Source: Cellulomonas flavigena DSM 20109 (GTDB lineage Bacteria > Actinomycetota > Actinomycetes > Actinomycetales > Cellulomonadaceae). From it: DNA of 64,000 bases. The position numbers were made by a program, and so were the translations under genes. The notes beneath the pieces are model-generated. The model made no database searches and was not told the origin of the DNA. It saw only the letters and a list, made by a program, of their open reading frames with translations. Numbering within the stretch: the stretch's first letter is position 1; the number at the start of each line of letters is the position of its first letter. Below, in pieces: positions 22,606-42,494 of this stretch. The stretch spans positions 2,418,001 through 2,482,000 of the forward strand of contig NC_014151.1 in assembly GCF_000092865.1 (NCBI RefSeq), read 5' to 3'.

Positions 22606-22649
22606 GGCCTGAGACTAGGCCACGCGCGCGGCGCCCGGCAGGTGCGGCG

Positions 22650-23027
22650 TCACACCCACTGGACGAGCTGCCAGACGATGCCGTTCGGGTCCTGGAACTG
22701 GCAGTAGCGCTCACCCCAGGGCTCGGTCTCGGGCGACGTGACGACCTGGGCGCCGGCCGCCGCGATGCGCGCGAACTCGGCGTCCAGGTCGTCGACCACG
22801 AAGGCGAGAAGGAGCCCTTGCCCCGCCGGACCGGCGATGTGCGCGGGCCGGAAGCTCGCCAGCCCGACCCGCAGGAACGTGAGGTTGACCGCGAGGTCGG
22901 GGTGCGTGAGTGCGACGAAGCCGTCGGCGGACATGGTCTCGGTGAACCCGAGGTGCGCCCGGGCGAACTCGGCGGACGCCGCGACGTCCGGGACGTTGAG
23001 GGAGACTGCGGATCCGGTGATGCGCAT
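22650..23027 (-). CDS. VOC-family protein divergent from a TetR regulator
   Basis: A 125-residue glyoxalase/dioxygenase-superfamily protein. The strand-helix start is SAVSLNVPDVAASAEFARAH and the C-terminal edge is YCQFQDPNGIVWQLVQWV. The ATG at 23027 has a GGAAGGA ribosome-binding site. It shares a 77-bp intergenic region with the TetR gene at 23105, which probably represses it. The substrate is unknown; a role in detoxifying a small electrophile or antibiotic is possible. Confidence 0.82.
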   Translation of the reverse strand: MRITGSAVSLNVPDVAASAEFARAHLGFTETMSADGFVALTHPDLAVNLTFLRVGLASFRPAHIAGPAGQGLLLAFVVDDLDAEFARIAAAGAQVVTSPETEPWGERYCQFQDPNGIVWQLVQWV

Positions 23028-23056
23028 GCGTGGTCCTTCCGTCGAAGCTACCTTGA

Positions 23057-23076
23057 CCACTGTACAAAGTATGTGG
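23057..23076. promoter_or_regulatory. Possible TetR operator
   Basis: CCAC-TGTACA-AAGTAT-GTGG has outer inverted arms (23057-23060 and 23073-23076) and a self-complementary TGTACA (23061-23066). It lies between the divergent VOC and TetR genes, where such an operator is expected. Confidence 0.4.
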
Positions 23077-23104
23077 ACGCCGCGATCATTCCCCGGGAGG
23101 ACGG

Positions 23105-23836
23105 ATGGCACGCGAGCTCGTCGACCTGCTCTGGCGCGACCACCCCGCCGCGCCGTCGGGGGGCGGCCGCGGACCGCGCGCCAAGGTGTCGACGACGCGC
23201 ACCGTCGAGGAGGCCGTCGCCCTCGCCGACGCCGAAGGGCTGGACGGGCTGACCGTGCGGCGGCTCGCCGCACGGCTCGGCGTGGCCGCGAACGCCGTGT
23301 ACACGCACGTCGGCTCGCGCGACGACCTGCTCGTGCTCATGGCCGACCTCGTGCGCACGCGCCGGCGGCGCCGCCCGTCCGCGCACGACGACTGGCGCAG
23401 CCGGGTCCGGGAGCTCGCCGAGGCCGAGCTGGCACTGCACGCCGCGCACCCGTGGCTCGTCGACGTCACCGACCAGCGCACCGCCTTCGGGCCCGGCACC
23501 ATCGCCGACTACGACCACCAGCTCCACGCGCTGGACGGCACCGGCCTCGACGACGTCGACCGGGACGCCGCCCTGACGTTCGTCACGGACTTCGTGCGTG
23601 CGTCCGCACGGGCACGACGGCCCGCCGCGTACGACGACCGGATGGCCACCGTGTGGGCGTCGTGGAGCGAGCGCCTGGCGACGTACGTCGGTGACACGCA
23701 CCCGCTCGCGCGTCGCGTGGGTGCGGCTGCGGGAGCCGCCATGCAGGCCCCGGCGAGCGCGGAGCACGCGTGGTGCTTCGGCCTCGAGCGCGTGCTCGAC
23801 GCGATCGAGGCGCTCGTCCGCGCGAACGGACGCTAG
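23105..23836 (+). CDS. TetR/AcrR-family transcriptional regulator
   Basis: A 243-residue regulator. The helix-turn-helix lies at residues about 35-80 (GLTVRRLAARLGVAANAVYT then HVGSRDDLLV), after an unusual 30-residue N-terminal extension (VDLLWRDHPAAPSGGGRGPR). The C-terminal domain resembles the TetR_C group whose members sense drugs or metabolites. ATG 23105 follows GGGAGGACGG. Its stop overlaps the stop of the convergent RDD-FHA gene in a shared CTAG. Confidence 0.88.
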   Translation: MARELVDLLWRDHPAAPSGGGRGPRAKVSTTRTVEEAVALADAEGLDGLTVRRLAARLGVAANAVYTHVGSRDDLLVLMADLVRTRRRRRPSAHDDWRSRVRELAEAELALHAAHPWLVDVTDQRTAFGPGTIADYDHQLHALDGTGLDDVDRDAALTFVTDFVRASARARRPAAYDDRMATVWASWSERLATYVGDTHPLARRVGAAAGAAMQAPASAEHAWCFGLERVLDAIEALVRANGR

Positions 23837-25026
23837 CGGGGGCCGCGCGCCTCGGGCGTCGCGAGGACCCGCAGCGACCGGTCGCCGAACGCCACCCGGG
23901 CGCCCACCCGCAGCCGCACCGGGTGGTCGACCGGGCACACCACCTGCGCCCCGTCGGGCAGCGTCACGAGCGTGCCGTTGGTGGAGCCGCGGTCGACCAC
24001 CCACGCGCCGCCGGCGCTGTCGACGGCGAGCTGCAGGTGCGTCTTGGAGACGGACCGCGACGGGTCGACCACCCGCACCACCTGCACGTCCGGCGCCGGC
24101 GAGGGGTTGCGGCCCACGAGTGCGAGCCGATCGACGGTGAGGACACGGCCGTCGTCGAAGGTCACCCGCAGACCCGTCGAGGTGCCCGGGCGCGGGTCCG
24201 GGACCACGTCGGTCCGTGGCCGCGCGGGTCGGGTCATCTCCAGCTCGGGCGCCAGGCCGAAGGCGAGGGTGGGGGTCGCCCGCACCGCCGGGATCGCGCG
24301 CGTGTCCAGGTCGGGCGCCGCGCGCTGCGGGTGCAGCGGCGCGAGGACCAGCCCGCCGCCCGGCGTCGCGGGCGCGGCAGGCGGCGGGGCGTCCGAGCGG
24401 TCGGCGGGGGACGCCGACGCCGCCGCCGCGACCGGTCGCGGCGTGGCGACCGGCGCCGCGTCGACCGGGGTCGGACCGGGCGCCGGGGCGGGCACCACCC
24501 GAGCGTGGTCGCGCCCGGGCACGGTGCGGCGCCCTGCGGGCGTCGCCGCCCGCAGCACCTCCGCGTCGACCGCGCGGTCGTGCCAGCCCCGCAGGCGCCC
24601 CGTGCGGTCGAGCAGCGGGGACAGCAGGACGACGTACTGGCCGACGCCGACGACGAGCGAGCCCGCCGCCACCACGCACCCCCGCAGCAGCACGCGGCCT
24701 GCGCCGATCGGCCGGCGGCTGTGCACGTCGACGGTCCGCACCCCCAGCAGGAGGCGGCCGAGCGTCCACCCGAACCGTCCGTGCAGCACCCACTGCACGA
24801 CAGCGACCACCGTGGCCAGCACCGCACCGGCGACCACGAGTCCTGCGGGGACACCGCCGGACGGCACCACTCCCGTGCGCAGTGCCGCCGCGGTGCGCAG
24901 CATCCCCACCAGCACCAGCCCACCGCCGAGCGCGAGCACGACGAGCTGGTCGACGAGCACCGCGACGCACCGTCGGCCCAGGCTCGCGGGGCGGTCGTCC
25001 ACGGCGGTCGCTGGTCGGGTGGTCAT
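23833..25026 (-). CDS. RDD membrane domain fused to a C-terminal FHA domain
   Basis: A 397-residue fusion. Residues 15-160 are an RDD domain (GRRCVAVLVDQLVVLALGGG, LGRLLLGVRTVDV, RGWHDRAVD) with three to four membrane segments. Residues 165-300 are a Pro/Ala-rich linker. Residues about 305-395 are an FHA domain with the phosphothreonine-binding marks GRNPSP, SVSKTHLQL and DRGSTNGT. It should be a membrane-bound reader of Thr phosphorylation. It is the last gene of the eight-gene array, and its ATG overlaps the stop of the transglutaminase-fold gene by 4 bp. The likely writer is the kinase at 35687-37255. Confidence 0.88.
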   Translation of the reverse strand: MTTRPATAVDDRPASLGRRCVAVLVDQLVVLALGGGLVLVGMLRTAAALRTGVVPSGGVPAGLVVAGAVLATVVAVVQWVLHGRFGWTLGRLLLGVRTVDVHSRRPIGAGRVLLRGCVVAAGSLVVGVGQYVVLLSPLLDRTGRLRGWHDRAVDAEVLRAATPAGRRTVPGRDHARVVPAPAPGPTPVDAAPVATPRPVAAAASASPADRSDAPPPAAPATPGGGLVLAPLHPQRAAPDLDTRAIPAVRATPTLAFGLAPELEMTRPARPRTDVVPDPRPGTSTGLRVTFDDGRVLTVDRLALVGRNPSPAPDVQVVRVVDPSRSVSKTHLQLAVDSAGGAWVVDRGSTNGTLVTLPDGAQVVCPVDHPVRLRVGARVAFGDRSLRVLATPEARGPR

Positions 25027-27395
25027 CGCTCACCTCGGCGTGCTCGGCGGGTCGTCGGTGGGGCGGGCGGCGCCGTGGGTGCCGGCTGCCGACGGGGCTC
25101 GCGGGGACGCGCGGCCGACGGGCGGCGCAGCGAGGTGAGCGCCGCCCGCGTGCGCACCCGGCGACGCCAGGGCAGGGTCCGGCGCAGCGCACTCACGGTC
25201 GCGTCGACGTCCGCCCAGTACGCCTCGACGTCGGAGCGGTCCGGCACACCCGGTGCGAACACCGCACGGTCCGCGCGGCGCGCGAGAGCGTCGACGCGCG
25301 CGGCCACCGCGGGGTGCCGCTCCACGAGCGTGCGCCCCCACAGCCGCGCGGTCTCGCGTCGCGTGCCGCCCGCCGGGGGCTCGCCGCCCATGTCGCGGGC
25401 GGTGTCGACGACCTCGTCCCAACCTCCGGCGACACGTCGCACGGGGTCCGCCGCGCGGCGCCGCCGCCGGCGCCGGCGCGCCTTGAGCGCGACGACGACG
25501 AGCAGCGGCGACAGCAGCACGAGGACACCCGCGAGACCGACGCCCGCCCAGGCGGCGATCCGCAGCCACAGCGCGAGCCCGGAGTCGTCCGCGGGCGGGT
25601 CCTCCGTCTGCGGCTGCTCGGTGTCGTCCTCGGGCGGCGTGACCCGGTCCGGCGGCAGGGCGGGCGGCTGCACCACCTGCGGCTGCGGGTCGGTGTCCGT
25701 CTCCTCCTGCTCCTGCTCGGGGGTCCGCGAGCGCGGCGGCGTCACGTCGAACGGCACCCAGCCGTGCCCGGCGAAGGCCACCTCGACCCACGCCTGGACG
25801 TCGCGGCCGCGGATCTCGACGGCACCGTCCTCGTCGGTCGGCGGGGGCACGTCCCCGGTCCCGTCCTCGTCGTCGCCCGACCCGGGGACGAACCCGAGGA
25901 CGACCCGCGCCGGCAGACCCCTCGCCTGGATCATCAGCGCGGCCGCAGCGGCGTACTGCTCGCCGTCACCGACCATGATCTCGCCCGCGAGGAGCTCGGC
26001 GACGCGCGCGGCGCCGTGGCCCGACAGGGACGGGTGGTCGCCCGCGTCGGTCAGGCCGTGGCTGAAGTAGCCGTCCTCGGACAGGTACCGGGAGATCGCA
26101 CGTGCGACCTGGACGGGCGACCCGGCGTCGCGTGCGACGTCGGACGCCGCGGCGTCGACGACCTGCAGACGGGCGGACGTCGGCGGCGAGACGGCGGCCG
26201 CGGACGCGCGGCCGACCTCGTCGTCGTCCGGCCGGTCCGGCACGACGACCTCCATCGTGTACGTCATGCCGGGGCGCACGCCGGACGTGACGACGGCCGC
26301 TCCCGTGACGTCGTTGTAGCGCAGGTCGGAGGCCTGCCGCCCCAGGTCGACGGACCGTGCGTACCCGACGGTCGGCAGCCACACGCCCTGCAGGTCCCCG
26401 ACCGTCACCTCGACGCGGGCCGGCGTGCCGCGCACGGGGACGTCGATCTCGTCGCCCACCCGGCGGAACTCCCCCGACGCCTGCGCGGAGCCGTCCCCCG
26501 CCACGTTGAACACGACACCGTCGTACCGGTCGAACGTCGCGAGCCGCACACGCGCCCCGGCGGGCAGGCCGTCGACCGTCATCAGCACCGTGTCGTCGAG
26601 CTTCACCAGGCGTCGGAACGACGCGAGGGGGCTCGGGTAGTCACGCGGGTCGAACGGCGGCACGATCTCGTCGCGGACCACGAGGCGCGGCTCGTCCGCG
26701 ACGACGAGCGGACCACCGAGCAGGCCACCGGTCGCCGCGACGGCCGCGAGCGCCGCGGTCGCCACCACGCGGCGGGGCCGCCAGGAGCCGACCCGCCACG
26801 CGGCCCAGACCAGGCACGTCGCGACGAGCACCGTCCCGGCGACGGCGGGCGGCACGGGCGGCTGCCGCGTGCCGAGCACGATCGACCCGACGAGCACGGC
26901 GAGCGGGACGACCGCCGCCAGCGCGGCCACGGCCGGACGACGGACCCGCAGGGTCAGCGACAACGCGACCGCCGTGCCGACGAGCGCGAGCAGCAGCGCC
27001 GCCACGAGCAGCGTGCCGCCGGTGCCGACCGGCGGCTGCAGGGTCAGCACCTGCTTCCACGTCGACGCGGCACCGCGCGCGAGCGCGACGAGCGTCGCGG
27101 GCGTCGGCACCACGCCGGCGACCGTCGTCGTCGGGGCGGCCAGCGCGCCGCCCGCGAGCGCGTACGCACCGAGCAGGGACGCGACGACCACCAGCGCGGA
27201 CGAGCGCCGCACGGCCGTGACGACCACGACGCCACCGCCCAGGACGACGCCGCCCAGGAGCGCCGGCAGCACCGCGGCCGTGCCGTAGGCCGGCAGGAGC
27301 GGCGTCAGCGCCAGCCCCGTCGCGAGGACGAGCACGACCACGTCGCGCACGGCGTCCGCGGGCTCGCGCACGCCGACCCGCTGCCCGGGCCTCAT
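25023..27395 (-). CDS. TgpA-like membrane protein with degenerate transglutaminase core
   Basis: A 790-residue protein with at least six N-terminal membrane segments (about residues 10-250), an outer region carrying a transglutaminase-like core (about 380-555), a Glu/Gln/Thr-rich linker, one more membrane segment (about 610-630), and a basic cytoplasmic tail. The layout matches TgpA/DUF3488 proteins that accompany MoxR and DUF58. The usual GxCEQFA motif reads GDGEQYA, with Gly478 in place of the catalytic Cys. The usual RDAHAWVEV reads RDVQAWVEV, with Gln534 in place of His; only Asp550 (PFDVTPP) remains. Transglutaminase or protease chemistry is therefore unlikely. Its ATG overlaps the DUF58 stop. 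Confidence 0.85.
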   Translation of the reverse strand: MRPGQRVGVREPADAVRDVVVLVLATGLALTPLLPAYGTAAVLPALLGGVVLGGGVVVVTAVRRSSALVVVASLLGAYALAGGALAAPTTTVAGVVPTPATLVALARGAASTWKQVLTLQPPVGTGGTLLVAALLLALVGTAVALSLTLRVRRPAVAALAAVVPLAVLVGSIVLGTRQPPVPPAVAGTVLVATCLVWAAWRVGSWRPRRVVATAALAAVAATGGLLGGPLVVADEPRLVVRDEIVPPFDPRDYPSPLASFRRLVKLDDTVLMTVDGLPAGARVRLATFDRYDGVVFNVAGDGSAQASGEFRRVGDEIDVPVRGTPARVEVTVGDLQGVWLPTVGYARSVDLGRQASDLRYNDVTGAAVVTSGVRPGMTYTMEVVVPDRPDDDEVGRASAAAVSPPTSARLQVVDAAASDVARDAGSPVQVARAISRYLSEDGYFSHGLTDAGDHPSLSGHGAARVAELLAGEIMVGDGEQYAAAAALMIQARGLPARVVLGFVPGSGDDEDGTGDVPPPTDEDGAVEIRGRDVQAWVEVAFAGHGWVPFDVTPPRSRTPEQEQEETDTDPQPQVVQPPALPPDRVTPPEDDTEQPQTEDPPADDSGLALWLRIAAWAGVGLAGVLVLLSPLLVVVALKARRRRRRRRAADPVRRVAGGWDEVVDTARDMGGEPPAGGTRRETARLWGRTLVERHPAVAARVDALARRADRAVFAPGVPDRSDVEAYWADVDATVSALRRTLPWRRRVRTRAALTSLRRPSAARPREPRRQPAPTAPPAPPTTRRARRGER

Positions 27396-28540
27396 CCCAC
27401 CACCCGGCGCAGTGCGCGCGGCAGGTCGTCGAGCCGGCCGAGCGTGCCCAGCGTGAGCGAGCCCTGCGTGCGCACCGCGACGTCCTCGCCGAGCGCGCAC
27501 CGCAGGACGACGGCGCGCGTGCCGGCGGGCAGTGCGCGCGCACCCAGACGCAGGTCGGCGTCGGTGGGCGCGCCGCCCGTGACGAGGAAGGCCACCGACG
27601 CGTCCGGTGTCTCGCGCACCACGCGGCGGCCCAGCAGGACGACACCGGGCCCCGTGGGCGACCACGACAGCCGCGAGCAGTCGTCGAGGAGCAGCGGGGG
27701 CGTGGCGGTCCGCAGGTGGCCCGCCCCGGCGAGCACCTCGACGTCGCGCTCGTCGCGGATCGCCTGCACCGCGATCGACGCGGCGACCGACACCGCCAGC
27801 TCGAGCTCGTCGGGGTGCGCGTAGTCGCCGACCGCGGTCGCGAGCGCGATGGACGTCAGCGTGCGCCGCGTGTCCTCGAACTGCTTGACCATGAGGCGGC
27901 CACGGCGCGCGGTCGTGCGCCAGTGGATGTAGCGGCGGTCGTCGCCGGCGACGTAGTCGCGCAGCGCGTGGAAGTTGAGGTCCGAGTCCGACAGGTCACG
28001 CGTCGCCTGCCCCTCGAGGTCGCGCAGCAGGCCGGCGTTGGCGCCGCCCAGGCCGATCACCTCGGGGTGCACGAAGAGCTCGGCGGGCTCGGTCCAGCGC
28101 AGACGGCGCTGCAGCAGTCCGAAGGGGTCGCCCCGCCGCGACACCACGGGGCCCACGACGATCACGGCACGCCGCTCCGTCGGCACCGCGAACAGGTCGT
28201 CGTGCGTGCCGCCGGGCGGCAGGCTCGGGACCGACAGCTCGACGACCCGCTCCCCGACGGGCAGGTCGACCTGCGAGGGCAGGGAGCGGCGCCTGGCGGC
28301 GTTGCGGACGTCGACGCGCCCCACGGCCCGCTGGCCGATGCGCACGCGGTGGTCCGCCAGGTCGAGCACGACGCGGTAGCGGGTGCGCCCGACCGTCATG
28401 AGGAGGGCGACCACGAGGACGGCCAGCAGCGCGACGCCGAGCGCCGCGAGCTCGCCCCAGCCCAGCACGCGTCCCGCCGCCGTGGCGAAGACGGCCACGA
28501 CCGCGGTCCCCCACCCCAGGGGCGCGACGCGCAGACCCAC
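27392..28540 (-). CDS. DUF58 domain protein
   Basis: A 382-residue protein with two N-terminal membrane segments (about 10-50) and a DUF58 domain. The signature region is RDYVAGDDRRYIHWRTTARR followed by GRLMVKQFE. DUF58 proteins are consistently encoded with MoxR ATPases and have a vWA-like fold thought to interact with them. Start GTG 28540 lies 3 nt after the moxR stop; the stop overlaps the next gene by 4 bp. A role as adaptor between MoxR and the membrane module is inferred from this linkage. Confidence 0.9.
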   Translation of the reverse strand: MGLRVAPLGWGTAVVAVFATAAGRVLGWGELAALGVALLAVLVVALLMTVGRTRYRVVLDLADHRVRIGQRAVGRVDVRNAARRRSLPSQVDLPVGERVVELSVPSLPPGGTHDDLFAVPTERRAVIVVGPVVSRRGDPFGLLQRRLRWTEPAELFVHPEVIGLGGANAGLLRDLEGQATRDLSDSDLNFHALRDYVAGDDRRYIHWRTTARRGRLMVKQFEDTRRTLTSIALATAVGDYAHPDELELAVSVAASIAVQAIRDERDVEVLAGAGHLRTATPPLLLDDCSRLSWSPTGPGVVLLGRRVVRETPDASVAFLVTGGAPTDADLRLGARALPAGTRAVVLRCALGEDVAVRTQGSLTLGTLGRLDDLPRALRRVVG

Positions 28541-28543
28541 GGC

Positions 28544-29500
<957 letters not shown>

Positions 29501-29546
29501 CGGTGGGGGCTCCAGTCGGTGGGGGTGGGCTGCGGTGCGGGCGGGG

Positions 29547-32500: not shown

Positions 32501-35500
32501 GCGCACGCGGCGGCTGCACGGGTGCGTCCGGCGTGACGGTGACCGTGAGCACGCCGTAGTCGCTGCCGCCCCCGTCGTTCGTCGCGAGGTACGGGATCTG
32601 CACGACGCCCGGGGCGGGCGGGGCCGTCACGACGATCCGCCGGCCCTGGATCTGCGCGTCGAGGCCCTCGGGCGGCTCGATCGCCTCGAGGCTCAGCTCA
32701 CGCCCGGTCGAGTCGATGTCGTTCGCCAGGACGCGCACCTCCACGCGCTGGCCGGGCCGGAGCGTCACCGCGTCGTCGACCGCGACGAGCCCCGCGGCAC
32801 CGGAGGGACGGGGCGCGATGCCCACGCGCACGGACGCGACCGCCCGCTGGCCCACCCAGTCCTCGACGGCGTACGTGAACTTCTCGGTGCCGCGCGAGCC
32901 GCGGTCCGCCTCGTACTCCAGCCAGTCGGGGCCGACCTCGGTGATGCGTCCCAGGGCCGGCGCCGACGCGGGACCGAGCAGGGTCACGCCGTCCCCGTCG
33001 TCGTCGATGCCGACGAGCGGCACGGGGATGCGCACGACGTCGCCCTCGAAGACGCGCGCCTCGACGTCCTTCGGCCGCGGCGGCGACTTCGTCTGCGGGT
33101 CGGACTCGTGGACGCGCACGGTCACGGTGGCCCCCGTGACGTTCCCCGCGGTGTCCTGCACCTGGAAGGTCGCACGCGCCGTGAGCGCCCGGTTCGGCGC
33201 CTGGTAGCGCAGCACGTCGCCCGAGACGAACAGCAGGCCGTCGCCCTCCGGCAGCGGCTCCGACAGCTCGCGCAGCACGGTCAGCGGGTCGCCGTCCGGG
33301 TCGGAGGCCCCGGCCAGCACCGGGATCGTCACGACGCCGCCGGCGCGCACGCTCGCCTCCACGGGCGGTACGACAGGCGCCTGCGACGACGCGGACGGCG
33401 GGATGGGGTGCACGACGATCTCGCCGCGCGCCGACGCCGAGCCGTTCGAGACCTCGTACACGAGCGGTACCGGCCCGTCCGGCGTCCGCTCGGCGCGGAT
33501 CCGCACGTACCGGTGGTCGATGACGGCGACCTGCAGCCCCGATCCCTCGGGCGCGGTGACGGTCTGGAGCACGAGCACGTTGTCGGCGGGGTCCTCGTCG
33601 TTGGCGAGCGGGTCGACGGTGACCTCGCCACCCGCCGGGAGCAACGCGAGGTCACGCACCGCGATCGGCGGCTGGGCCTGCTCCGGCCACTCCCGCACGT
33701 CGATCCGCGCGAGGCCGGTCGCCTGCTGCGGGGCCGCGGTGACGACGAACTGCACGTAGTACACCTGGGCCCGCGGCGCCTTGAACGTGAACGTCCCGGC
33801 ACGCAGGTCGGGGACGATCGTCGCGCCCACCACGTCGGACACCGCGGCCAGGCGCGGCGGCTCGCTGGACGCCGAGCGGACCGCGTCGAGCGGGCTGACC
33901 ACGACCTCCTGCCCGACGTAGGTCACCGCGTGCACGGGGTCGATCTGCGGCGCGACGGAGCCCGCGGCGCGCACGTCCACGACGACCTCGCCGTCGACGA
34001 CGTTCGTGCCGTCGGAGACCTGCACCTGCACGGTCGTGCGGCCGAGCCCGCCACCGTCGGCGGTGAACGTCAGCACGCCGTCCTGCCGGAACCGGGCGGT
34101 CCCCACCGAGGGGTCCGCGGTCGCACCGACGAGCAGCAGGTCGTCGCCGTCGGCGTCGTGGAAGTCCGCGAGGACGCCGTGCTCGAGCTGTCCGCCGGTC
34201 TCGACCGTCAGGGTCGACGTGCGCGCCTGGGTCGGCGCGGTGTCGCCGTCGCTCACCGTGAGGGTCACCACGCCCGTCGCGGGAGCGTTCACGCCGCCAC
34301 CGTCGTTGACGGAGTACTTGAACTGGACCGAGCCGCTCGCGCCCTCCGCCACGTGCACCTGCAGCGCGCGGCCGCCGCGCACGGGCTCCACGGTGCCGAA
34401 CTCCGGCGGCGGGGCGTCGACCTGCGTGATCACCAGGATCTTGCAGTCCGCCGACGAGTCGTTGTCGATCACCGGCAGCAGGCGCGTGCGTCCGGCGCGC
34501 ACGCCGAACGCGTCGTCGGCGGCGACCGGCGGCGCGCCCTGGTCGCTGCACTCGGTGACCGGCTCCTGCATGACCTCGCCGCTGTCGGAGTCCTCCTCGG
34601 ACTCCTCCGGCTCCTCCTCGGGCACGATGTCGTCCCAGTTCGGGACGCGCACCTCGGTGTCCTCCTGCGGCAGCCAGACCCGGCCCCCGACCGTGTCGTT
34701 GAGGACGACGAGACCGCGGTTGACGCGGAACTCCAGCTGGTCGCCCGTGCTCAGCCCCTCGAGGTCCTTGACCACCGCGTCCCGGCCGGCGCACAGCTCG
34801 AGGTATCCGCCGACGGACGAGGACCACGCGGCGTACGCGCAGTCCCCCACACGCACGGGCTTCGCGGGCCTGCCGGAGCCCGTCGTGGGGTGCTCCCGCG
34901 GTGCGCCGCCGTCGAGCGGCACCTCCCACAGCGCCGATCGCCCGGCGACCAGCACGCTCGAGGCCGCCGGTCCCGGCTGCTGCAGCACCAGGTCGTCGTC
35001 GTCGACCTCCACCGTGCCCGCGAGGGTCCGCACCGTGCTGCCCGACAGCACGACCAGCTCGTCGCCCACGGTCGTCGCGGCATCCGCCTCGACGGCCCCG
35101 AGCCGGCCGACCTCCTCCGGCGCGACCGGCTCCTGTGCGGGTGCGCGGGTGACCGTCCCGGTCTCCGGCGCCAGCGCGAGCACCGCGCCGCTGCGCGCCA
35201 CGACCGCCACCCCGCCCGCACCGAGCCGGAGGTCGGGCGTGTCCTGCGTGAGGTCGAGCGTGTCGAGCGCGGCGACCTGGCGGACCCACGCGTCGCCGTC
35301 ACTGTCGACGAACGCGACGCGCCCCGCGGCCATGGACACCTCGGTGCCCGGCGTCGCCAGCTGGGTCGTCGTCGCCACGCTCGCCGGGTCGACGACCGAC
35401 ACGGTGCTCTGCTCCCGCAGCAGCACCCAGCCCTCGTCCTGCAGCACGTCGAACGTGCCGCCGGTGGTGACCAGGCCACCGTCGAGCTCCTCGACGGGCA

Positions 35501-35690
35501 CGTTGTAGCGCCCCAGGCTCATCTTGCTCGTGGCCGTGAGCCACACGCCACCGTCGTTCAGGTCGACGCGGGCCAGCGGGAAGCCCTGGTCGAGGAGCGC
35601 GAGCGACAGCACGACCGCAGGAACCGTCACGATCGCGGCCGCCCTGCTCGCCGGCCCTCGGCGCCAGGTGCGCGCGTCCCACCAGGTCAC
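29547..35690 (-). CDS. Giant membrane-anchored Ig-like / fibronectin type III protein
   Basis: A 2047-residue protein. One membrane anchor near residues 14-35 (SRAAAIVTVPAVVLSLALLD) is followed by a roughly 320-residue strand-rich region that may be a beta-propeller. An acidic linker (EEEPEESEEDSDSGE, about 357-372) leads to about ten Ig/cadherin-like repeats to residue 1465, marked by Asp/Asn-rich turns such as GASDPDGDPLTV and VLANDIDSTGRELS. Six Fn3 domains (about 1465-2040) end the protein. There is no LPxTG, signal cleavage site or C-terminal anchor, so it is a type II surface or wall-spanning protein. GTG 35690 overlaps the kinase stop by 4 bp. Ca2+-like DxD sites in the repeats are suggestive. 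No family function is known to me. Confidence 0.85.
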   Translation of the reverse strand: MTWWDARTWRRGPASRAAAIVTVPAVVLSLALLDQGFPLARVDLNDGGVWLTATSKMSLGRYNVPVEELDGGLVTTGGTFDVLQDEGWVLLREQSTVSVVDPASVATTTQLATPGTEVSMAAGRVAFVDSDGDAWVRQVAALDTLDLTQDTPDLRLGAGGVAVVARSGAVLALAPETGTVTRAPAQEPVAPEEVGRLGAVEADAATTVGDELVVLSGSTVRTLAGTVEVDDDDLVLQQPGPAASSVLVAGRSALWEVPLDGGAPREHPTTGSGRPAKPVRVGDCAYAAWSSSVGGYLELCAGRDAVVKDLEGLSTGDQLEFRVNRGLVVLNDTVGGRVWLPQEDTEVRVPNWDDIVPEEEPEESEEDSDSGEVMQEPVTECSDQGAPPVAADDAFGVRAGRTRLLPVIDNDSSADCKILVITQVDAPPPEFGTVEPVRGGRALQVHVAEGASGSVQFKYSVNDGGGVNAPATGVVTLTVSDGDTAPTQARTSTLTVETGGQLEHGVLADFHDADGDDLLLVGATADPSVGTARFRQDGVLTFTADGGGLGRTTVQVQVSDGTNVVDGEVVVDVRAAGSVAPQIDPVHAVTYVGQEVVVSPLDAVRSASSEPPRLAAVSDVVGATIVPDLRAGTFTFKAPRAQVYYVQFVVTAAPQQATGLARIDVREWPEQAQPPIAVRDLALLPAGGEVTVDPLANDEDPADNVLVLQTVTAPEGSGLQVAVIDHRYVRIRAERTPDGPVPLVYEVSNGSASARGEIVVHPIPPSASSQAPVVPPVEASVRAGGVVTIPVLAGASDPDGDPLTVLRELSEPLPEGDGLLFVSGDVLRYQAPNRALTARATFQVQDTAGNVTGATVTVRVHESDPQTKSPPRPKDVEARVFEGDVVRIPVPLVGIDDDGDGVTLLGPASAPALGRITEVGPDWLEYEADRGSRGTEKFTYAVEDWVGQRAVASVRVGIAPRPSGAAGLVAVDDAVTLRPGQRVEVRVLANDIDSTGRELSLEAIEPPEGLDAQIQGRRIVVTAPPAPGVVQIPYLATNDGGGSDYGVLTVTVTPDAPVQPPRARDVLVPAIDTLGKTEVSVDVLAVAQNPSGPLSDLEVSVPASHADVARVTEEGDVVVTLVDHAQTVPYRLVNTTEPTADAYAFITVPALGFFPPQLRPRAPELRVASGEQIEIPLAEHVQVAPGRKPTIADPTQVSAPRSNGAELVKDPSTIVFTSAEGYAGPASVTVPVTDATGPSDTTARTALLTLQITVYAVDDVAPTFDGATIEVEPGEAPTRIDLLALTHGPEQADGAVASADRYGYSLTSVVPAGFVVDSEGSELWVSADPTTPKGTTGRLDLRLTYGRSGAMEIAVDLRVVASKRRTATVQNFTVDDGAQGRESTVDVLEGAFNPFPDTGPLKVVGAVVETVGAGTASASSSSVTVRPGDDFIGLMVVRFRVRDVTSDPGREVEGRVTVRVSGVPLAPVPPRIGEVRDRTVVLSWTAPDNRGEPITEYRVTAQPGGATRSCASTTCTIDNLTNDVEYTFTVEARNRVGWSEPSPASAPARPDAVPDAPGAPRLVFGDGSVTATWDAPVSKGSPITSYSLEISPAPDSGAATRTTTSTSYTFDRLRNGVAYTVRVRAHNKAPEPSAWSLWSGTEIPAGPPGAPTGLAATRVDVPYGGQITVTWGDTAPNGDAIQGYELVVGGSNGGTFPLNADARSYAFAQARNGETYTFSLRARNKAGWGSAASTDASTYGQPGAPGAPSAEALVGQGAARLTWADADGNGAPIERYVVTVSDGRRLDVSGTSTTVTGLTGGSSYTFTVTAVNAQGEGPASAAATVQASTPPGTPTVEAPVVSATGDFGRATQLLVSWSAVSANALDAEGRPSTVSYEYQVTSNWGSTQRLSTTATSATVDVSGWRFPVGGGDVTVTVWPHTTVSGQRLDGSSGARTASVGRWGSPPSAPGTPTLVVDGTALTASWTAPAVNGGSDIERYQVTWTIPGRRDRVENTGPGTLQHTNEVGDVPPGTVVTVTVRAENASGRGDPASATWTVPEPAAPEGDG

Positions 35691-37255
35691 GGCGTGCACC
35701 CCTCCGCCGGGAGCGCCGACCTGCTGCGGTCCGCCCGCACGATGGACACCTCGATGCACACCTCACCCGTCGCCTGGTCGGCGGGGACCGTCACGCGTTC
35801 GGCGTCGACGAGCTCGTACGTCGGCTCACCGGTGGCCGTGAGCACGCCCCAGAGGTACCGGTCCCCGTCCTGCGGGTCGGGATTCTGCCACGTGAACGTG
35901 ACGGAGCCGTCGTCGGCGCGCGTGCCGGCGAGCGAGTGCGGCGCGGGCACGGGGCCCGCCGCCGGACCGGTCTGCGGCGGGGCGAACGTCTCGCTGGGCA
36001 CCGGTGGCTCCGGCTCGTCGCCGGTCACGGTCGCGACGAGCACACCGACCACCGCGGCCAGCACGACGCCGCCGGCCACGAGTGCGGCGACGCGCGCGCC
36101 ACGCCTGCCGACGGGTGCGTCGGGCACCCCGACGGGCGGCGCGGCCTGCGGGGGCGCGGGAGCCACGAGCACGGGTCGGCCGACGACGACGGCCCGGGCG
36201 CGGGTCGCGTCCTCGTCGAGGCCCGGCGGCACGGCGGGGCCCGGCGTCGCGACCCCCCGCAGACGCGTCGCGTCCTCGTCGAGGACGTCCGCCCCGGCAC
36301 GCGCGACGACCGGCGGTGGCCCGAAGGGTGAGGCCGCCGCCCCCGGCGCGGTGCCTGACGTGACGCCGTGCGGGACCGGTGACGGGTCGTCGGGCAGGTC
36401 GAGGGGCGTCACCGGCAGCCGCAGCGCCGCCTCGACCTCCTGCAGCGCGCGGGCGACCGCGACAGCGGACTCGAAACGGCGGGACGGGTGCTTGGCCATC
36501 GCGCGCTCGAGGACGGCCTGCAGCTGCGGGGGCACGTCCTCGCGTCCGACGGACGGCAGCGGCGAGCGCTCGATGCGGGCCACCAGCTGCTGCGCGCTGT
36601 TGTTGCCGCCGGGCAGCTCGAACGGCGAGCGTCCGGCCAGCAGCGAGTAGACGGTCGCGGCGAGCGCGTAGACGTCCGAACGCTCGTCGCCCGTGGGGTG
36701 CTCGGCGAGCAGCTCGGGCGGCGACCACGGGATCGACATGCCCATGGTCTGGACCGCCGGCCCCGTCGTCGCGGCGATGCCGAAGTCCGTCAGCGCAGGC
36801 CAGCCGAAGTCGGTCGTCAGGACGTTGGCCGGCTTGATGTCGCGGTGCAGGATGCCGGCGCGGTGCGCCGTCTCGACGGCCGAGGCCAGCCGCACCCCGA
36901 TCCGCAGGACCTCGGGCACGGGGATGCGCTCTACGCGGTACCGCTCGGCGAGCCCGGTGCGCGAGCAGTACTCCATGACGAGGTAGGGCCGCCCGTCCGG
37001 CGCGATCGCCGCGTGGTGGATCGTGACGATCGAGGGGTGGTGCGAGAGCTGGGCCATGAGGTTGGCCTCCGTCTGGAACCGCTCACGGACGTCGTCGTCG
37101 AGGCTGCCCGCGAGCAGCACCTTGACCGCGACGTCACGCCGCGGCAGGTGCTGGCGGTACAGGAACACGTCGGCGAACCCGCCGAGCCCGAGCACGCGGA
37201 CGTACTCGTACCCCGGCAGGTCCGGCGGCGCGGACGCCTCACGACGAGCGGTCAC
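35687..37255 (-). CDS. Transmembrane Ser/Thr protein kinase with Fn3-like outer domain
   Basis: A 522-residue PASTA-less PknB-type kinase. Kinase domain: Gly-rich loop LGLGGFADV (residues 22-30), Lys45, helix-C Glu63, HRDIKPANV with Asp139, and DFG at 157-159. The activation segment is GMSIPWSPPE rather than the usual GTxxYxxPE. An Ala/Pro-rich juxtamembrane linker precedes one membrane segment (about 388-410). The outer 110 residues (SVTFTWQNPDPQDGDRYLWG through CIEVSIVRADRSRS) look like a single Fn3-type domain. GTG 37255 overlaps the FHA gene stop. It is the presumed writer for the two FHA proteins and is opposed by the PP2C. Confidence 0.92.
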   Translation of the reverse strand: MTARREASAPPDLPGYEYVRVLGLGGFADVFLYRQHLPRRDVAVKVLLAGSLDDDVRERFQTEANLMAQLSHHPSIVTIHHAAIAPDGRPYLVMEYCSRTGLAERYRVERIPVPEVLRIGVRLASAVETAHRAGILHRDIKPANVLTTDFGWPALTDFGIAATTGPAVQTMGMSIPWSPPELLAEHPTGDERSDVYALAATVYSLLAGRSPFELPGGNNSAQQLVARIERSPLPSVGREDVPPQLQAVLERAMAKHPSRRFESAVAVARALQEVEAALRLPVTPLDLPDDPSPVPHGVTSGTAPGAAASPFGPPPVVARAGADVLDEDATRLRGVATPGPAVPPGLDEDATRARAVVVGRPVLVAPAPPQAAPPVGVPDAPVGRRGARVAALVAGGVVLAAVVGVLVATVTGDEPEPPVPSETFAPPQTGPAAGPVPAPHSLAGTRADDGSVTFTWQNPDPQDGDRYLWGVLTATGEPTYELVDAERVTVPADQATGEVCIEVSIVRADRSRSALPAEGCTP

Positions 37256-39009
37256 GACGCGCTGCGCTCCACGGTGAACGTGACGCCGTCGCCCAGGTCG
37301 ACGACCTCGTCGGGCCCCACGACGCTCGGTTCGCCGGGGTGCAGCCGCCGCACGCCCTCGCCGGGCCGCGACACGTGCACCCCGTTGGTGGAGTCGAGGT
37401 CGGTGACGATGACGTGGTCGCCCTCGACGCGCACCTCGGCGTGCGTCCGCGAGATGTCCTGGTTGGGGCTCGGCACCGTCACCAGGCGCGGCAGCTCACG
37501 GTTGGACACGCGCGCGACCTGCGGCGCGCGTCCCAGCAGGACGGCGCGGTCGAGCGCGACCACGAGTCCCGTCGAGAGCACCATGCGCGCGGCCAGCGGC
37601 GCGGGCTGCGGCACGGGGAACGGCCCGGGCTCGGCGTCCTGCGACCAGGCCGGGAGACGGTCGCGCAGCCGCGCGAGGTCGGAGGACAGGATCGTCATGC
37701 CGTCGTGGTCGTCGGACCCCGCCGTCTCGTCGGCGACCGCCGCGGGGGCGGTCACCGGCGCGAACGGGGGCGGGGCGGGCGTGGACGCGGGCGCGGCGGG
37801 GGTCGGCGCGGGCTCGGCGGTCCCCGCGTCGCCCAGCGGCCACCAGGGGATCTCGGGCTCGCGCTCCGGGGCTGGTGCCAGTTCCGGTGCCGGCGCCGGC
37901 GTGTCCGCGGGCCCCGCCGCCGACCACGCCACCGCCTCCGCGCCGGACCATGCGGGCGGGCCGGCCGCCTCGAGCAGCTCCTCGGGCGAGAGCCGCTCGG
38001 TGGGCACGTCGGGCTCGACGGGTGCCGCCGGCAGCGCGGCTGCGACCGGCGCGGGCGCCCACGGGTCGACCTCCACCTGCTCGACCGGCGCGGCGGGCGC
38101 CGGCTCGAGCGGCTCGGGCAGGCCGAGCTCGGGTGCCGGCAGCGTCGCCACGTCGGGCTCGACCACGCCCGCGGGATCGGCGGGGACGGCGGCCTCGACC
38201 GGCGCGGCCACGGTGGGGCCCGCAGGCTCGGGCGCCGCCTCCGGCTCGGACCCTGCGGGCGGCTCGGTCTCCCCCGACGGCCCCGTCTCCGCCGACGACT
38301 CGGTCTCCGCCGCCGGCTCGCTCTCCTCCGCCGGCTCGCTCTCCTCCGCCGACTCGGTCTCCGCCGACGGCTCGATCTCCGCCCCGGACGGCCGCGGCGG
38401 CTCCGCCGCGGCGACCGCGCCGCCCGGCACCGAGCCGCCCGGCACCGCGGCGACGTCGACCACCACGGGGTGCTCCGGCACCGCGTCGCCGGCGGGCTCC
38501 GGCACGATCGGCTGCTCGTGCGTCGCGGTGTCCGGCAGCGCCACGGGCACCACCGTGGCGGCGTCCGGCACCTCACCGGTCCGCAGACCGCCGGACCGCA
38601 CGACACCGCCGGTCAGCGGCCACCAGGTCGCGTCGGGCACCGCGTCGACAGCGAGCTCGAGGCCGAGCACGCCCAACGCACGGTGCTCGGTCCACACGGC
38701 CCCGTCACCGGCCGTGACCTCCTGGGTGCCGTCCACGCCGTGCAGGCGGAGCCGCACCGCACCACGCAGCACCGCGTGCACGGCACCGTCGCCGTCGGCG
38801 CGCAGCACCGCGAACCCGGGCAGGGCAGCGAACCCGTCGGCCGCGACCACGCCGAGGGCGCCCAGCACGTCGCCGCCCTCGCTGGCCACCCGCCACAGGC
38901 CGTCGACGAGGCGCCACGGCGCGTCCGGCTCGACCAGCGCGAGGAACCCGTCGGACACGACGGCCGTCCAGGGTCCGTCCTGGTACTCGTGGTGCGTGCG
39001 GTCGCTCAT
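37252..39009 (-). CDS. FHA-domain protein with long Pro/Ala/Glu-rich spacer
   Basis: A 585-residue cytoplasmic protein. Residues 1-140 form a globular, Trp- and Gly-rich domain of unrecognised type (for example YQDGPWTAVVSDGFLALVEP). Residues about 150-440 are low complexity, including Ser/Glu/Pro/Ala repeats. Residues about 475-585 are a C-terminal FHA domain: LLGRAPQ, DISRTHAEVRV and DLDSTNGVHV carry the phosphothreonine-binding Arg, Ser, His and Asn positions. It probably docks to phosphorylated kinase or substrate. Its ATG overlaps the PP2C stop and its own stop overlaps the kinase start. Confidence 0.88.
   Translation of the reverse strand: MSDRTHHEYQDGPWTAVVSDGFLALVEPDAPWRLVDGLWRVASEGGDVLGALGVVAADGFAALPGFAVLRADGDGAVHAVLRGAVRLRLHGVDGTQEVTAGDGAVWTEHRALGVLGLELAVDAVPDATWWPLTGGVVRSGGLRTGEVPDAATVVPVALPDTATHEQPIVPEPAGDAVPEHPVVVDVAAVPGGSVPGGAVAAAEPPRPSGAEIEPSAETESAEESEPAEESEPAAETESSAETGPSGETEPPAGSEPEAAPEPAGPTVAAPVEAAVPADPAGVVEPDVATLPAPELGLPEPLEPAPAAPVEQVEVDPWAPAPVAAALPAAPVEPDVPTERLSPEELLEAAGPPAWSGAEAVAWSAAGPADTPAPAPELAPAPEREPEIPWWPLGDAGTAEPAPTPAAPASTPAPPPFAPVTAPAAVADETAGSDDHDGMTILSSDLARLRDRLPAWSQDAEPGPFPVPQPAPLAARMVLSTGLVVALDRAVLLGRAPQVARVSNRELPRLVTVPSPNQDISRTHAEVRVEGDHVIVTDLDSTNGVHVSRPGEGVRRLHPGEPSVVGPDEVVDLGDGVTFTVERSAS
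38262..38383 (-). repeat. Tandem repeats in the FHA protein linker
   Basis: Imperfect 18-bp units (consensus close to CTCGGTCTCCGCCGACGG on the plus strand) repeat about six times, encoding alternating Glu-Ser/Thr-Ala/Pro hexapeptides such as AEESEP and AETESS. Copy number is likely to vary between strains. Confidence 0.7.
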
Positions 39010-39896
39010 GCGGGGTCCTCCTGGGCCTCGGCCGGCGCCGCCGGCGGGACGGGCGTGGGCGTGTCGGCCGGCGCCGGGACGGCCGACCGGGGGACGGTCG
39101 CGCCGTTGAGCATCTCGTCCCACAGGTGCGGGCCGAGGTCGGGAGCCGAGCGCGGCAGCGTCGTGGGCGTCGGCTCGGGGGTCGTGGTGCTCGCGACGTC
39201 GACGACGACGGCGCTCACGTTGTCCCGGCCGCCCCGGTCGAGGGCGTCCTGGACGAGGCGCGCCGAGGCCTCCTGCGGGTCGTCCACCGACGCGAGGACG
39301 TGCGCGATCTCGTCGTCCGCCAGCTCGCGCGTGAGCCCGTCGGTGCAGATCAGCAGGCGGTCGTCGGCGCCCGCCGGGAGCAGCCAGTAGTCGGGCTCCG
39401 GCGGCTCACCGGTGCCGAGCGCGCGCGTCAGCACGTGCCGCTCGGGGTGCTTGCGCGCGGCCGTCGGGGTGATCTCGCCGGACTCCAGGAGCTCCTGGAC
39501 CACCGAGTGGTCGACGCTGACCTGCGTGAGCGCGCCCTCGGACCAGCGGTAGACGCGCGAGTCACCCACGTTGAAGACCAGCCAGTACCAGCCGCCGTCG
39601 TGCTCGGTCACGGCGACGCCCGCGACGGTCGTGCCGCCCTGGCGCCCCCCGGTGAACTCGGTGCGGATGCGCGTGGACGTGCGCGAGAAGCACGCGTGCA
39701 CGTCGTCGGACGACGCCGACGACTGCCCCGCGAGCTGCGCGAACTCCTCGACGGCGATCCGGCTCGCGAGGTCGCCGGCGTCGTGCCCACCCATGCCGTC
39801 CGCCACGAGGAAGACCGGCGGGTACGCCAGCAGCGCGTCCTCGTTCACCTCACGGACGCGTCCGCGGTCCGTCGCCGAACCCCACGACGTGCGCAC
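39006..39896 (-). CDS. PP2C-type protein phosphatase (PstP-like)
   Basis: A 296-residue metal-dependent phosphatase: SWGSATDRGRVREVNEDALL, the metal Asp in VADGMGGHDAG, GDSRVYRW, TDGLTREL and GGRDNVSAVVVD. The C-terminal 60 residues are Pro/Thr-rich with no membrane segment, unlike membrane-anchored PstP. GTG 39896 is chosen because typical homologues begin at RTSWGSATD; an in-frame GTG 87 bp upstream would add an unlike extension. It is the first gene of the array and probably reverses phosphorylation by the kinase two genes downstream. Confidence 0.9.
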   Translation of the reverse strand: MRTSWGSATDRGRVREVNEDALLAYPPVFLVADGMGGHDAGDLASRIAVEEFAQLAGQSSASSDDVHACFSRTSTRIRTEFTGGRQGGTTVAGVAVTEHDGGWYWLVFNVGDSRVYRWSEGALTQVSVDHSVVQELLESGEITPTAARKHPERHVLTRALGTGEPPEPDYWLLPAGADDRLLICTDGLTRELADDEIAHVLASVDDPQEASARLVQDALDRGGRDNVSAVVVDVASTTTPEPTPTTLPRSAPDLGPHLWDEMLNGATVPRSAVPAPADTPTPVPPAAPAEAQEDPA

Positions 39897-39985
39897 TGCA
39901 CCACCGTCCCGTCCTCGTCGCGCCACCGGCGCACATGGTGCCTCACGCGGGGCGTACGCTTCACGTGCATCCGTCCAGTTCACCC

Positions 39986-41572: not shown

Positions 41573-41573
41573 C

Positions 41574-42494
41574 TCAGAAGCCCAGCCGGCCGAGCTGCTT
41601 GGGGTCACGCTGCCAGTCCTTCGCGACCTTCACGTGCAGGTCGAGGAAGACACGGGCACCCAGCAGCGCCTCGATCTGGGTGCGGGCGCGCGTACCGACG
41701 TCGCGCAGGCGCGCGCCACCACGGCCGATGACGATGGCCTTCTGGCTGTCACGCTCGACGAACAGGTGCACGCGGACGTCCAGCAGCGGGCGGCCGTCGG
41801 TGCCCGGGCGCTGCTCGCGCGGCACGATCTCGTCGACGACCACGGCCAGGGAGTGCGGCAGCTCGTCACGTACGCCCTCGAGGGCGGCCTCGCGGACGAG
41901 CTCGGCGACCATGACGTGCTCGGGCTCGTCGGTGAGCTCGCCCTCGGGGTACAGGGCTGGGCCCTCCGGCAGGTGCGCCACCAGCACGTCGGCGAGCGTG
42001 TCGACCTGGTAGCCGGCCTGCGAGGACACCGGCACGATGTCGGCCCAGTCCCCCAGCTGGTCGACCGCGAGCAGCTGCTCGGCGAGGCGGGCGCGCGGCA
42101 CCGTGTCGGTCTTGGTGACGATCGCGACGACGGGCGTGCCGGAGCCCCCGGGCGGCGCCAGGCGGGCCAGCTGCTCGGCGATGAACCGGTCGCCGGGCCC
42201 GATCTTCTCGTCGGCAGGCAGGCAGAAGCCGATGACGTCGACCTCGGTGAGCGTGTCGCGCACGAGGTCGTTGAGCCGCTCGCCGAGGAGCGTGCGGGGG
42301 CGGTGCAGACCGGGGGTGTCGACGAGCACGAGCTGCGCGTCCTCGCGGTGCACGATGCCGCGCACGACGTGCCGCGTGGTCTGCGGGCGGCCCGACGTGA
42401 TCGCGACCTTCTGCCCGACGAGCGCGTTGGTCAGTGTCGACTTGCCGGTGTTGGGCCGCCCGACGAGGCACGCGAAGCCGGAACGGTGGGTCAT
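41574..42494 (-). CDS. era: GTPase Era
   Basis: A 306-residue ribosome-assembly GTPase that binds 16S rRNA near its 3' end. G1 GRPNTGKST, G3 DTPGLHRPR and G4 TKTD are present; the C-terminal KH domain is marked by AIVIGRGGARLRDVG. Its ATG overlaps the stop of the CBS protein by 4 bp. It sits in the conserved order phoH-ybeY-CBS protein-era. Confidence 0.97.
   Translation of the reverse strand: MTHRSGFACLVGRPNTGKSTLTNALVGQKVAITSGRPQTTRHVVRGIVHREDAQLVLVDTPGLHRPRTLLGERLNDLVRDTLTEVDVIGFCLPADEKIGPGDRFIAEQLARLAPPGGSGTPVVAIVTKTDTVPRARLAEQLLAVDQLGDWADIVPVSSQAGYQVDTLADVLVAHLPEGPALYPEGELTDEPEHVMVAELVREAALEGVRDELPHSLAVVVDEIVPREQRPGTDGRPLLDVRVHLFVERDSQKAIVIGRGGARLRDVGTRARTQIEALLGARVFLDLHVKVAKDWQRDPKQLGRLGF

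Follow-up and report, generated by a model that had tools for sequence, protein, structure and literature searches.

A PFNA-type operon in Cellulomonas, its relatives in other actinobacteria, and a possible connection with type VII secretion

INTRODUCTION

What brings genes for signalling proteins—a kinase, a phosphatase and two FHA proteins—together with genes for a MoxR ATPase, a DUF58 protein, a transglutaminase-like membrane protein and a surface protein of 2047 aa? The question is raised by eight genes in the window, a stretch of 64 000 nucleotides from the genome of Cellulomonas flavigena DSM 20109, where the DNA around the cluster is 75% GC. We describe the genes and their relatives, and ask what the proteins might be doing in one another's company.

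THE EIGHT GENES

All eight lie on the minus strand and are transcribed from high coordinates to low. First comes a PrpC-like Ser/Thr phosphatase of the PP2C type (296 aa; 39006..39896, start at 39896), which matches PF13672 at 47.3 bits, scores 196 of 230 bits with the Stp1 model, and has all of the motifs DGMGG, GDSR, DGL and GRDN. An FHA protein follows (585 aa; 37252..39009; PF00498, 30.2 bits), comprising an N-terminal domain of ~135 aa common to relatives, in which the profile made from it (fhaN) finds matches, a Pro/Ala-rich middle, and the FHA domain at the C-terminus. Next are a Pkb2-like Ser/Thr kinase (522 aa; 35687..37255; PF00069, 131.8 bits; HRDIKPAN and DFG) with one transmembrane (TM) helix at residues 389–407, and the giant surface protein (2047 aa; 29547..35690), in which Pfam finds six Big_9 stretches. 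The remainder are a MoxR AAA+ ATPase (318 aa; 28544..29500, ATG at 29500; PF07726, 210 bits; PF17863, 80 bits), a DUF58 protein with one hydrophobic segment over threshold (382 aa; 27392..28540; PF01882, 45.5 bits), a TgpA-like membrane protein (790 aa; 25023..27395; PF11992, 35 bits; PF01841, 50.5 bits), and a protein with an RDD membrane domain and a C-terminal FHA domain (397 aa; 23833..25026; PF06271, 58.6 bits; PF00498, 36.2 bits).

From phosphatase to RDD-FHA, the junctions are three overlaps of 4 bp, gaps of 46 and 3 bp, and two further overlaps of 4 bp, sizes that depend on start codons picked by position. Re-derivation returned exactly the coordinates, and the six close junctions of seven, given by the sequence-only reading of this DNA, and Pfam backs the domain name it gave to each gene. 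A sigma-70 and terminator scan of 22500–41700, a weak test at 75% GC, found no promoter-like sites, and one plus-strand terminator-like site, a count not above that in shuffled sequences. A MoxR-vWA-propeller conflict system seems a less likely identity: the MoxR protein (P0004) scores 40 bits against bpMoxR and 210 bits against AAA_3.

RELATIONSHIP TO PFNA

Judged by sequence, the set is a PFNA-type operon, and so, where it had been supposed that the combination had no experimental description, one has been published. In Bifidobacterium, PFNA comprises pkb2-fn3-aaa-atp-duf58-tgm together with prpC, a hypothetical gene and fha. In B. longum eight genes are co-transcribed, and the Pkb2 kinase phosphorylates MoxR (PMC8430577); the phosphorylation link between products that the sequence-only reading had looked for is thus on record for homologues. 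The window retains the order kinase-giant-MoxR-DUF58-TgpA on one strand, with MoxR in the same place, a single-TM kinase with an ectodomain, a Cys-less TgpA-like protein (Tgm in PFNA), and a giant of ~2000 aa homologous to bifidobacterial FN3, N-terminal domain included. Accessory prpC and fha genes are present but placed differently: the phosphatase and FHA genes precede the kinase in the window, whereas in Bifidobacterium they come after tgm, and RDD-FHA stands in place of the hypothetical gene and fha. Pfam finds five Fn3 stretches in the window's giant, against two given for B. longum (PMC10688814). The host organism differs, too, from that of PFNA as published, being a Cellulomonas.

DISTRIBUTION OF THE GENE SET

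PFNA-type sets are not confined to bifidobacteria, a finding new here. They occur in Cellulomonas, Microbacterium, Georgenia and others, and the published restriction to Bifidobacterium fails in 42 of 80 named loci, which by title lie outside Bifidobacteriaceae. Across the order, 257 of the 396 genomes were found to have the giant's N-terminal domain, in a survey that scored at most four candidates per genome and so can miss giants; weak matches in f87, f88 and f90 may be to the Ig domain only, and one of these, G438, failed at 1e-20. The profile of this domain (A1) matches all 14 f78 genomes tested, and named Bifidobacterium loci carry the domain. At six of the 80 named loci a giant was not seen; most of these are on short contigs, though L159 (Sinomonas) was long enough.

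When 56 loci of 20 kb were selected by the giant alone, giant-MoxR-DUF58-TgpA proved to be kept in 50, a recurrence that rules out a chance neighbourhood. The kinase is on the same strand in 40 of the 56, PP2C in 42 and FHA in 41; these go unseen in 16, 14 and 15, respectively, some of the loci being cut by the flank. The core is also present at four of five loci fetched from outside the class (L035, L036, L038 and L074), which disposes of an artefact of close relatives; at the fifth, L075, MoxR-DUF58-TgpA is on the opposite strand. L029 has a giant without the remaining genes. Because the families co-occur so far beyond close relatives, the narrow confinement that the sequence-only reading had named as fatal to it was not what we found. 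Its order of eight families survives in part: the core recurs, but the full order is not fixed, for the PP2C-FHA-kinase block moves, lying ahead of the core in some relatives and behind it in others, and the exact order of the window was seen at four other loci, all of the same genus (L076, L079, L080 and L081).

In the gene tree, Bifidobacterium rows are nested among those of other genera. This tree and the EssC tree below are quick searches under a simple model, with many rows flagged for skewed composition. Named and unnamed loci share genes (L138/L077, L092/L043, L134/L057 and L130/L067), and hence the 130 giants and 104 kinases counted below include duplicates.

THE PROTEINS OUTSIDE THE MEMBRANE

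As sequence and model have it, the giant is anchored by a single N-terminal helix, after which come a beta-propeller (approximately 34626..35555) and a long stalk of Ig/cadherin-like and then Fn3 repeats. The AlphaFold2 model of helix, propeller and Ig domain has a pLDDT of 89.4, and Foldseek matches to this part in the PDB are mostly propellers; a PDB sequence search gave weak matches, designed propellers among them. Neither a C-terminal TM helix nor an LPXTG/sortase motif was found in the sequence. Lengths are narrowly distributed, with a median of 2031 aa and quartiles of 2002.5 and 2081.75 (130 frames, duplicates included). The propeller, the fold of the kinase's outer domain, and the secretion genes beside relatives' clusters had not been mentioned by the sequence-only reading.

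The kinase ectodomain (35696..35956; ~85 aa with two Cys; alignment A4) has no Pfam match. It is described in publications as highly variable; on our modeling it is, to the contrary, a conserved Fn3-fold domain, which is new here. Profile comparison makes it Fn3-like at 84.5%, versus 1.0% with a reversed profile, and the model (pLDDT 95.7) leads Foldseek to Fn3. By alignment, its conservation spans genera and is not host-specific: the domains of B. saguini and the window are 44% identical, and of 104 kinase frames, 91 have a TM helix followed by at least 60 aa, 87 passed our filter, and all 87 have the second Cys, the independent one since the filter itself requires the first. Kinase frames of L061, L074, L122 and L137 were left out, and two f91 kinases seem catalytically degenerate. 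PASTA kinases (PknB/Stk1) share the single TM helix, and PknB_PASTA_kin is the best NCBIfam model, but its 172 bits fall far under the cut-off of 450, and the outer fold is Fn3, not PASTA.

The TgpA-like protein has seven hydrophobic segments, an outer core and one late TM helix. TgpA_N and the transglutaminase-like core (25746..26150) recall TgpA of Pseudomonas aeruginosa and the MoxR-DUF58-transglutaminase loci. In P. aeruginosa, however, TgpA is active and its triad is conserved (PMC3507681), whereas the window protein reads GDGEQY where the Cys would be expected and DVQAW where the His would be. Among 55 such proteins, Bifidobacterium included, Cys occurs at its position in none and His in 14. 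These come from the window and from 54 of the 56 giant-selected loci, L029 and L063 having no TgpA frame; the named set (L090–L169) was left out because the pattern by which it was fetched, VGD[SGA]EQYA, contains the Cys-less motif. No PDB sequence match was found. The residues argue against an active transglutaminase; as a new observation, the protein retains the fold family and membrane segments without the catalytic Cys.

THE TYPE VII SECRETION CONNECTION

All eight large FHA frames scanned beside the operon are FHA-FtsK proteins, and an EssC-like gene adjoins it at 12 loci (in L057 and L134, the same gene). Twenty downstream stretches were examined, five of them picked because EssC had already been seen; the other 15 were fetched before it was sought there, and six have it. 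At L035 and L061 there is a 4-bp overlap between the TgpA stop and the EssC frame; in Microbacterium, Agreia, Herbiconiux and Sinomonas the EssC frame comes after PP2C-FHA-kinase. Thus in several families an EssC-like gene follows the operon, in some cases with WXG100 genes nearby, which is also new here. The main EssC clade does not include the EssC-like genes that adjoin L033, L034 and L180. No FHA-FtsK ATPase or WXG100 gene is in the window's own cluster. The matching EssC of this genome, from the same clade as the linked ones, sits at a separate locus, 1571808, with WXG100 directly after it (1576364). Using a limit of 1300 bits, chosen after we saw a gap from 1358 to 881, linked-type EssC is present in 10 of the 29 giant-bearing genomes and in 1 of the 20 that lack the giant (Fisher p 0.017, related genomes). 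By lineage it is present in 10 of 15 Cellulomonas, all giant-bearing, and in none of 14 bifidobacteria, figures that we count against a strict link.

Among the matches listed in the literature searched, PFNA and EssC/T7SS are not joined. One of the closest described systems is T7SSd (TsdA, TsdC, TsdD, TsdH and TsdI; Garrett, Higginson and Palmer 2024, PMC11217815). It, too, combines a Ser/Thr kinase that extends outside the membrane with a large envelope protein of Ig type, here of 1654 aa; its FHA-ATPase and WXG100 have counterparts in relatives of the window's cluster, but not in that cluster itself. TsdD's outer part is described as helical, whereas the window's is modeled as Fn3, and MoxR-DUF58-TgpA is not described for T7SSd, nor is MoxR in the main text of that paper.

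WHAT THE PROTEINS MIGHT DO

Our preferred reading, to which we give a probability of roughly one-half, is that the operon encodes a phosphorylation-controlled machine for building and monitoring the membrane-anchored giant, one that in some lineages joins type VII secretion. Outside the membrane, the kinase ectodomain would sense what state the giant, or the TgpA-like core, is in. Phosphorylation would act as a switch on MoxR-DUF58, which would remodel the TgpA-like protein and the membrane-held giant; phosphorylated partners would dock on the two FHA proteins; and PP2C would reset the circuit. Since EssC-like FHA-ATPases and WXG100 genes are attached to the operon in several lineages, this machine may be able to serve as a secretion platform in the envelope.

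A more elaborate version, which we put forward tentatively, treats PFNA as one half, the envelope part, of an actinobacterial T7SS subtype not yet described. The giant would be the outer scaffold or conduit, held by the Cys-less transglutaminase fold and assembled by MoxR-DUF58; the Fn3-tipped kinase, PP2C and the FHA readers would gate EssC through its FHA domain; and in bifidobacteria and some Cellulomonas the scaffold would have outlasted the loss or exchange of the motor. That the operon is such a secretion system proper, with the giant as envelope-spanning component—as proposed for TsdI/EsaA—and itself the object gated by kinase, PP2C and FHA, we find doubtful. The adjoining EssC genes, the WXG100 genes, the skew toward giant-bearing genomes and the make-up of T7SSd argue for it; the bare cluster of the window and the giants that occur without linked-type EssC, in all 14 bifidobacteria and in 5 of the 15 Cellulomonas, argue against, as does anchorage, for TsdI has a signal peptide and a C-terminal TM helix and the window's giant only the N-terminal one.

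Might the giant have nothing to do with secretion, and be a strain gauge or wall spacer that the kinase reads to sense envelope stress? Its narrow range of lengths, anchor, propeller and long stalk are what one might expect of such a device, and so is an Fn3-fold ectodomain on the kinase, but a giant with no sortase motif fits poorly, repeated EssC linkage is left unexplained, and we consider the idea unlikely.

Least probable is the role published for bifidobacteria, that of a host-immunity receptor and adhesin, in which FN3 binds cytokines and the kinase senses host ligands: B. longum FN3 fragments bind TNF-alpha, which raises PFNA expression (PMC8430577 and PMC10688814), but the set is present in other genera with Bifidobacterium nested among them, the kinase ectodomain is conserved across them, and the WSxxS 'cytokine receptor motif' occurs both in the window and among giants from outside Bifidobacteriaceae (64 of 86). 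The same nesting and motif leave the acquisition of these genes by bifidobacteria from their hosts unsupported.

IMPLICATIONS

The literature treats PFNA as a receptor through which bifidobacteria perceive human cytokines, and has considered it in connection with drug design. That soil actinobacteria have it as well, along with its motifs, argues that its first job is a bacterial one; the host role may be a secondary one in gut species. The missing Cys speaks against tgm being an enzyme, insofar as inactivity can be predicted from residues. And the link to EssC joins two literatures, and would make the role of MoxR-DUF58 testable by a secretion readout.

The cluster and the published PFNA operon

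Eight genes follow one another on the window's minus strand, from 39896 to 23833: PP2C, FHA, a Pkb2-like kinase, a giant surface protein of 2047 aa, MoxR, DUF58, a TgpA-like protein and RDD-FHA. The gene layout and junction spacings of the sequence-only reading are borne out by the coordinates, and Pfam backs all eight of its family names. Its remark that the combination lacked an experimental description is refuted, for the PFNA operon of Bifidobacterium is published. That operon—pkb2-fn3-MoxR-duf58-tgm, with prpC, a hypothetical gene and fha—is described, in passages of PMC8430577, PMC6803598, PMC10688814, PMC12607495 and PMC12067865, as co-transcribed in B. longum GT15, with a MoxR that is phosphorylated by Pkb2 and FN3 fragments that bind TNF-alpha. 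The cluster is a PFNA-type operon whose setting and arrangement are new and whose list of parts is corrected. Its mechanism we infer; the one step published, kinase to MoxR, was described for a homologue.

The Bifidobacterium ‘hypothetical’ gene lies between PP2C and FHA in three fetched loci (L090, L092, L108) and begins MVDYDAAVAAVQDP; fhaN, a profile of the FHA protein's N-terminal domain, gives no match to it there. A record named Bifidobacterium pullorum subsp. saeculare (L122) has kinase-giant-MoxR-DUF58-TgpA, whereas Table 1 of PMC8430577 enters the pullorum subsp. saeculare group as without PFNA.

Upstream of the cluster, also on the minus strand, are an alpha/beta hydrolase gene (39986–41608), the end of which lies 89 bp ahead of the PP2C start, and genes assigned by match to a KH-domain (Era-like) GTPase and a CNNM/CorC protein. 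Downstream, a TetR-type gene on the plus strand ends at 23836, convergent with RDD-FHA. The genome is a single contig of 4.12 Mb; at ~3005–3008 kb (L174:3305-5720) a PP2C gene adjoins another RDD-FHA gene.

Range, gene order and descent

A profile built from 15 rows of the giant's N-terminal part (A1) matches 257 of 396 genomes of the order (E<=1e-8) and, in a phylum-wide sample at 1e-20, 14 of 396, six of them from outside the class. When 39 chosen genomes were rechecked, 38 were positive, including all 14 from the bifidobacteria, which have one giant copy apiece. A scan with the TgpA-like protein as query retained the best 80 of 448 relatives; 38 of these 80 are named Bifidobacteriaceae, and the remainder are chiefly Cellulomonas, Actinotalea, Sanguibacter and Microbacterium, with Jonesia, Georgenia, Agreia, Herbiconiux, Cryobacterium, Sinomonas, Arthrobacter and MAGs also included. 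Because PFNA-type loci occur in many organisms outside Bifidobacteriaceae, the statement in PMC10688814 that PFNA occurs in bifidobacteria only fails. A passage in PMC12067865 notes the likeness between the mycobacterial moxR operon and PFNA. Microbacterium-like TgpA, RDD-FHA and PP2C also stand on a contig of 4848 bp (L157) that bears the label Stenotrophomonas maltophilia P13; this contig is probably contamination.

Gene order was counted in 56 loci picked by the giant alone, with genes sought within 20 kb. MoxR directly follows the giant in 52, MoxR-DUF58 in 52 and MoxR-DUF58-TgpA in 50, and on the same strand a kinase is present in 40, PP2C in 42 and an FHA protein in 41. The PP2C-FHA-kinase block lies ahead of the core (giant-MoxR-DUF58-TgpA) in the window, Georgenia and others, and behind it in Microbacterium, Agreia, Arthrobacter and Herbiconiux; in Bifidobacterium the kinase is ahead, and PP2C and FHA behind. 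Four loci of the same genus agree exactly with the window in gene order. In a tree of MoxR, DUF58 and TgpA (50 rows), Bifidobacterium is nested, its sister being family f91 and then a Cellulomonadaceae group: the pattern that vertical descent would give. Many genomes of families f2 and f5 have two giant genes in tandem, ~6 kb apart, ahead of MoxR, as at L063 and at places including genomes G552, G774, G713, G470, G554, G592, G430, G704 and G731.

The giant, the TgpA-like protein and the kinase

Giant frames vary little in length: across 130 of them, duplicates counted, the median is 2031 aa and the quartiles are 2002.5 and 2081.75. By Pfam the window protein has six Big_9 stretches and five of fn3; a C-terminal TM and an LPXTG were both sought in it, and neither is present. 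AlphaFold2, given window:34254-35660 and 57 relatives, models its N-terminal part (pLDDT 89.4) as a helix (3–23), a beta-propeller—so named from the strand pattern and from Foldseek, the best matches being mostly propellers—a disordered linker and an Ig-like domain. The ‘cytokine receptor motif’ WSxxS is present in the window giant's first Fn3 as WSEPS. Outside Bifidobacteriaceae, 64 of 86 giants have it (window counted), as do 44 of 45 inside.

We take GYC to be catalytic in TgpA-like proteins. Of 55 proteins compared, from the window and 54 giant-selected loci, none has Cys at the Cys position (D 24, S 10, G 9, E 6, A 6), and 14 retain the His of the core. At the Cys position all nine bifidobacterial proteins carry Ser; at the His position six of them carry Thr. 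Two MoxR-linked paralogues occur in the same genome: one (L082) retains GYC and AHAW at the aligned columns and the other (L085) has no Cys, so Cys loss extends beyond PFNA. Passages of PMC3507681 give P. aeruginosa TgpA as having the triad and being active in vitro, and PMC8430577 terms tgm an enzyme.

The window kinase has a single domain of ~85 aa after its TM, with 44% identity to that of B. saguini, 38% to B. asteroides, 48% to Microbacterium salsuginis, and 24–34% in remoter families. A passage in PMC8430577 terms the kinase's C-terminal region highly variable. The ectodomain matches nothing in Pfam up to E=10; its profile aligns to the giants' Fn3 domains with 84.5% probability (reversed profile, 1.0%), and its model (pLDDT 95.7) is a seven-strand sandwich for which Foldseek returns mostly Fn3 domains, including cytokine-receptor pairs. 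It is not universal, since the kinases of L039–L041, L052–L054 and L070 stop <=8 residues past the TM. Two f91 kinases (L060, HRGVAP/VGFGAA; L071, VHGGVRP/IGFAAA) are degenerate in their catalytic motifs, and from these sequences might possibly be pseudokinases within the PFNA cluster. The motif names HRD and DFG, and WXG below, are used in their customary sense.

Type VII secretion neighbours

Large FHA frames adjoin some clusters, and all eight scanned combine FHA with FtsK/SpoIIIE (L057 and L134 being one and the same gene), which is the composition of EssC, the ATPase of type VII secretion. The EssC frame and the TgpA stop overlap by 4 bp at two loci, L035 and L061; EssC lies behind the PP2C-FHA-kinase block in Microbacterium, Agreia, Herbiconiux and Sinomonas. 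None was seen in other Microbacterium loci, L144, L146 and L160 among them, where several kb remained after the kinase. Among 15 downstream stretches, fetched before any EssC search there, six (L182–L185, L187, L188) have a same-strand EssC of >1600 bits and one (L180) has a distant EssC and two WXG100-like genes. WXG100 exceeds the Pfam cut-off in L177 and falls below it in L184 and L185, yet W-x-G is visible; a purpose-built profile matches in L038, L180, L183 and L187. The strong EssC matches form one clade of 19 rows, outside which fall the EssC-like genes of L033, L034, L180, L194, L131 and L141. A conserved protein of 234–236 aa directly precedes EssC at L182:3958-4662, L184:5249-5959 and L185:13601-14311; Pfam gives no match to it.

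The Cellulomonas flavigena genome itself has EssC-like genes at 1282720 (L171), 1571808 (L195) and 3767625; a further match, at 2684190, is weaker. The gene at 1571808 falls in the 19-row clade, next to Georgenia, and is directly followed by a WXG100 at 1576364. Behind the EssC-like gene of L171 (1279000–1298900) come frames bearing Fn3, MoxR, DUF58 and the Cys-less L085, and a kinase lies on the opposite strand; this is a second, diverged version of the arrangement.

Among the papers listed by searches of open-licence PMC, none links PFNA with type VII secretion in its title, abstract start or counted terms. PMC11217815, which describes T7SSd, mentions Bifidobacterium in its abstract, and the terms MoxR and PFNA are absent from its main text. 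EssC of the linked type occurs in 10 of the 15 giant-positive Cellulomonas genomes, in 0 of the 14 giant-positive bifidobacteria and in 1 of 20 genomes that gave no giant match, which speaks against a strict link. Because EssC of this type is rarely found without PFNA, and PFNA is often found without EssC, PFNA looks like the platform, and EssC its client.
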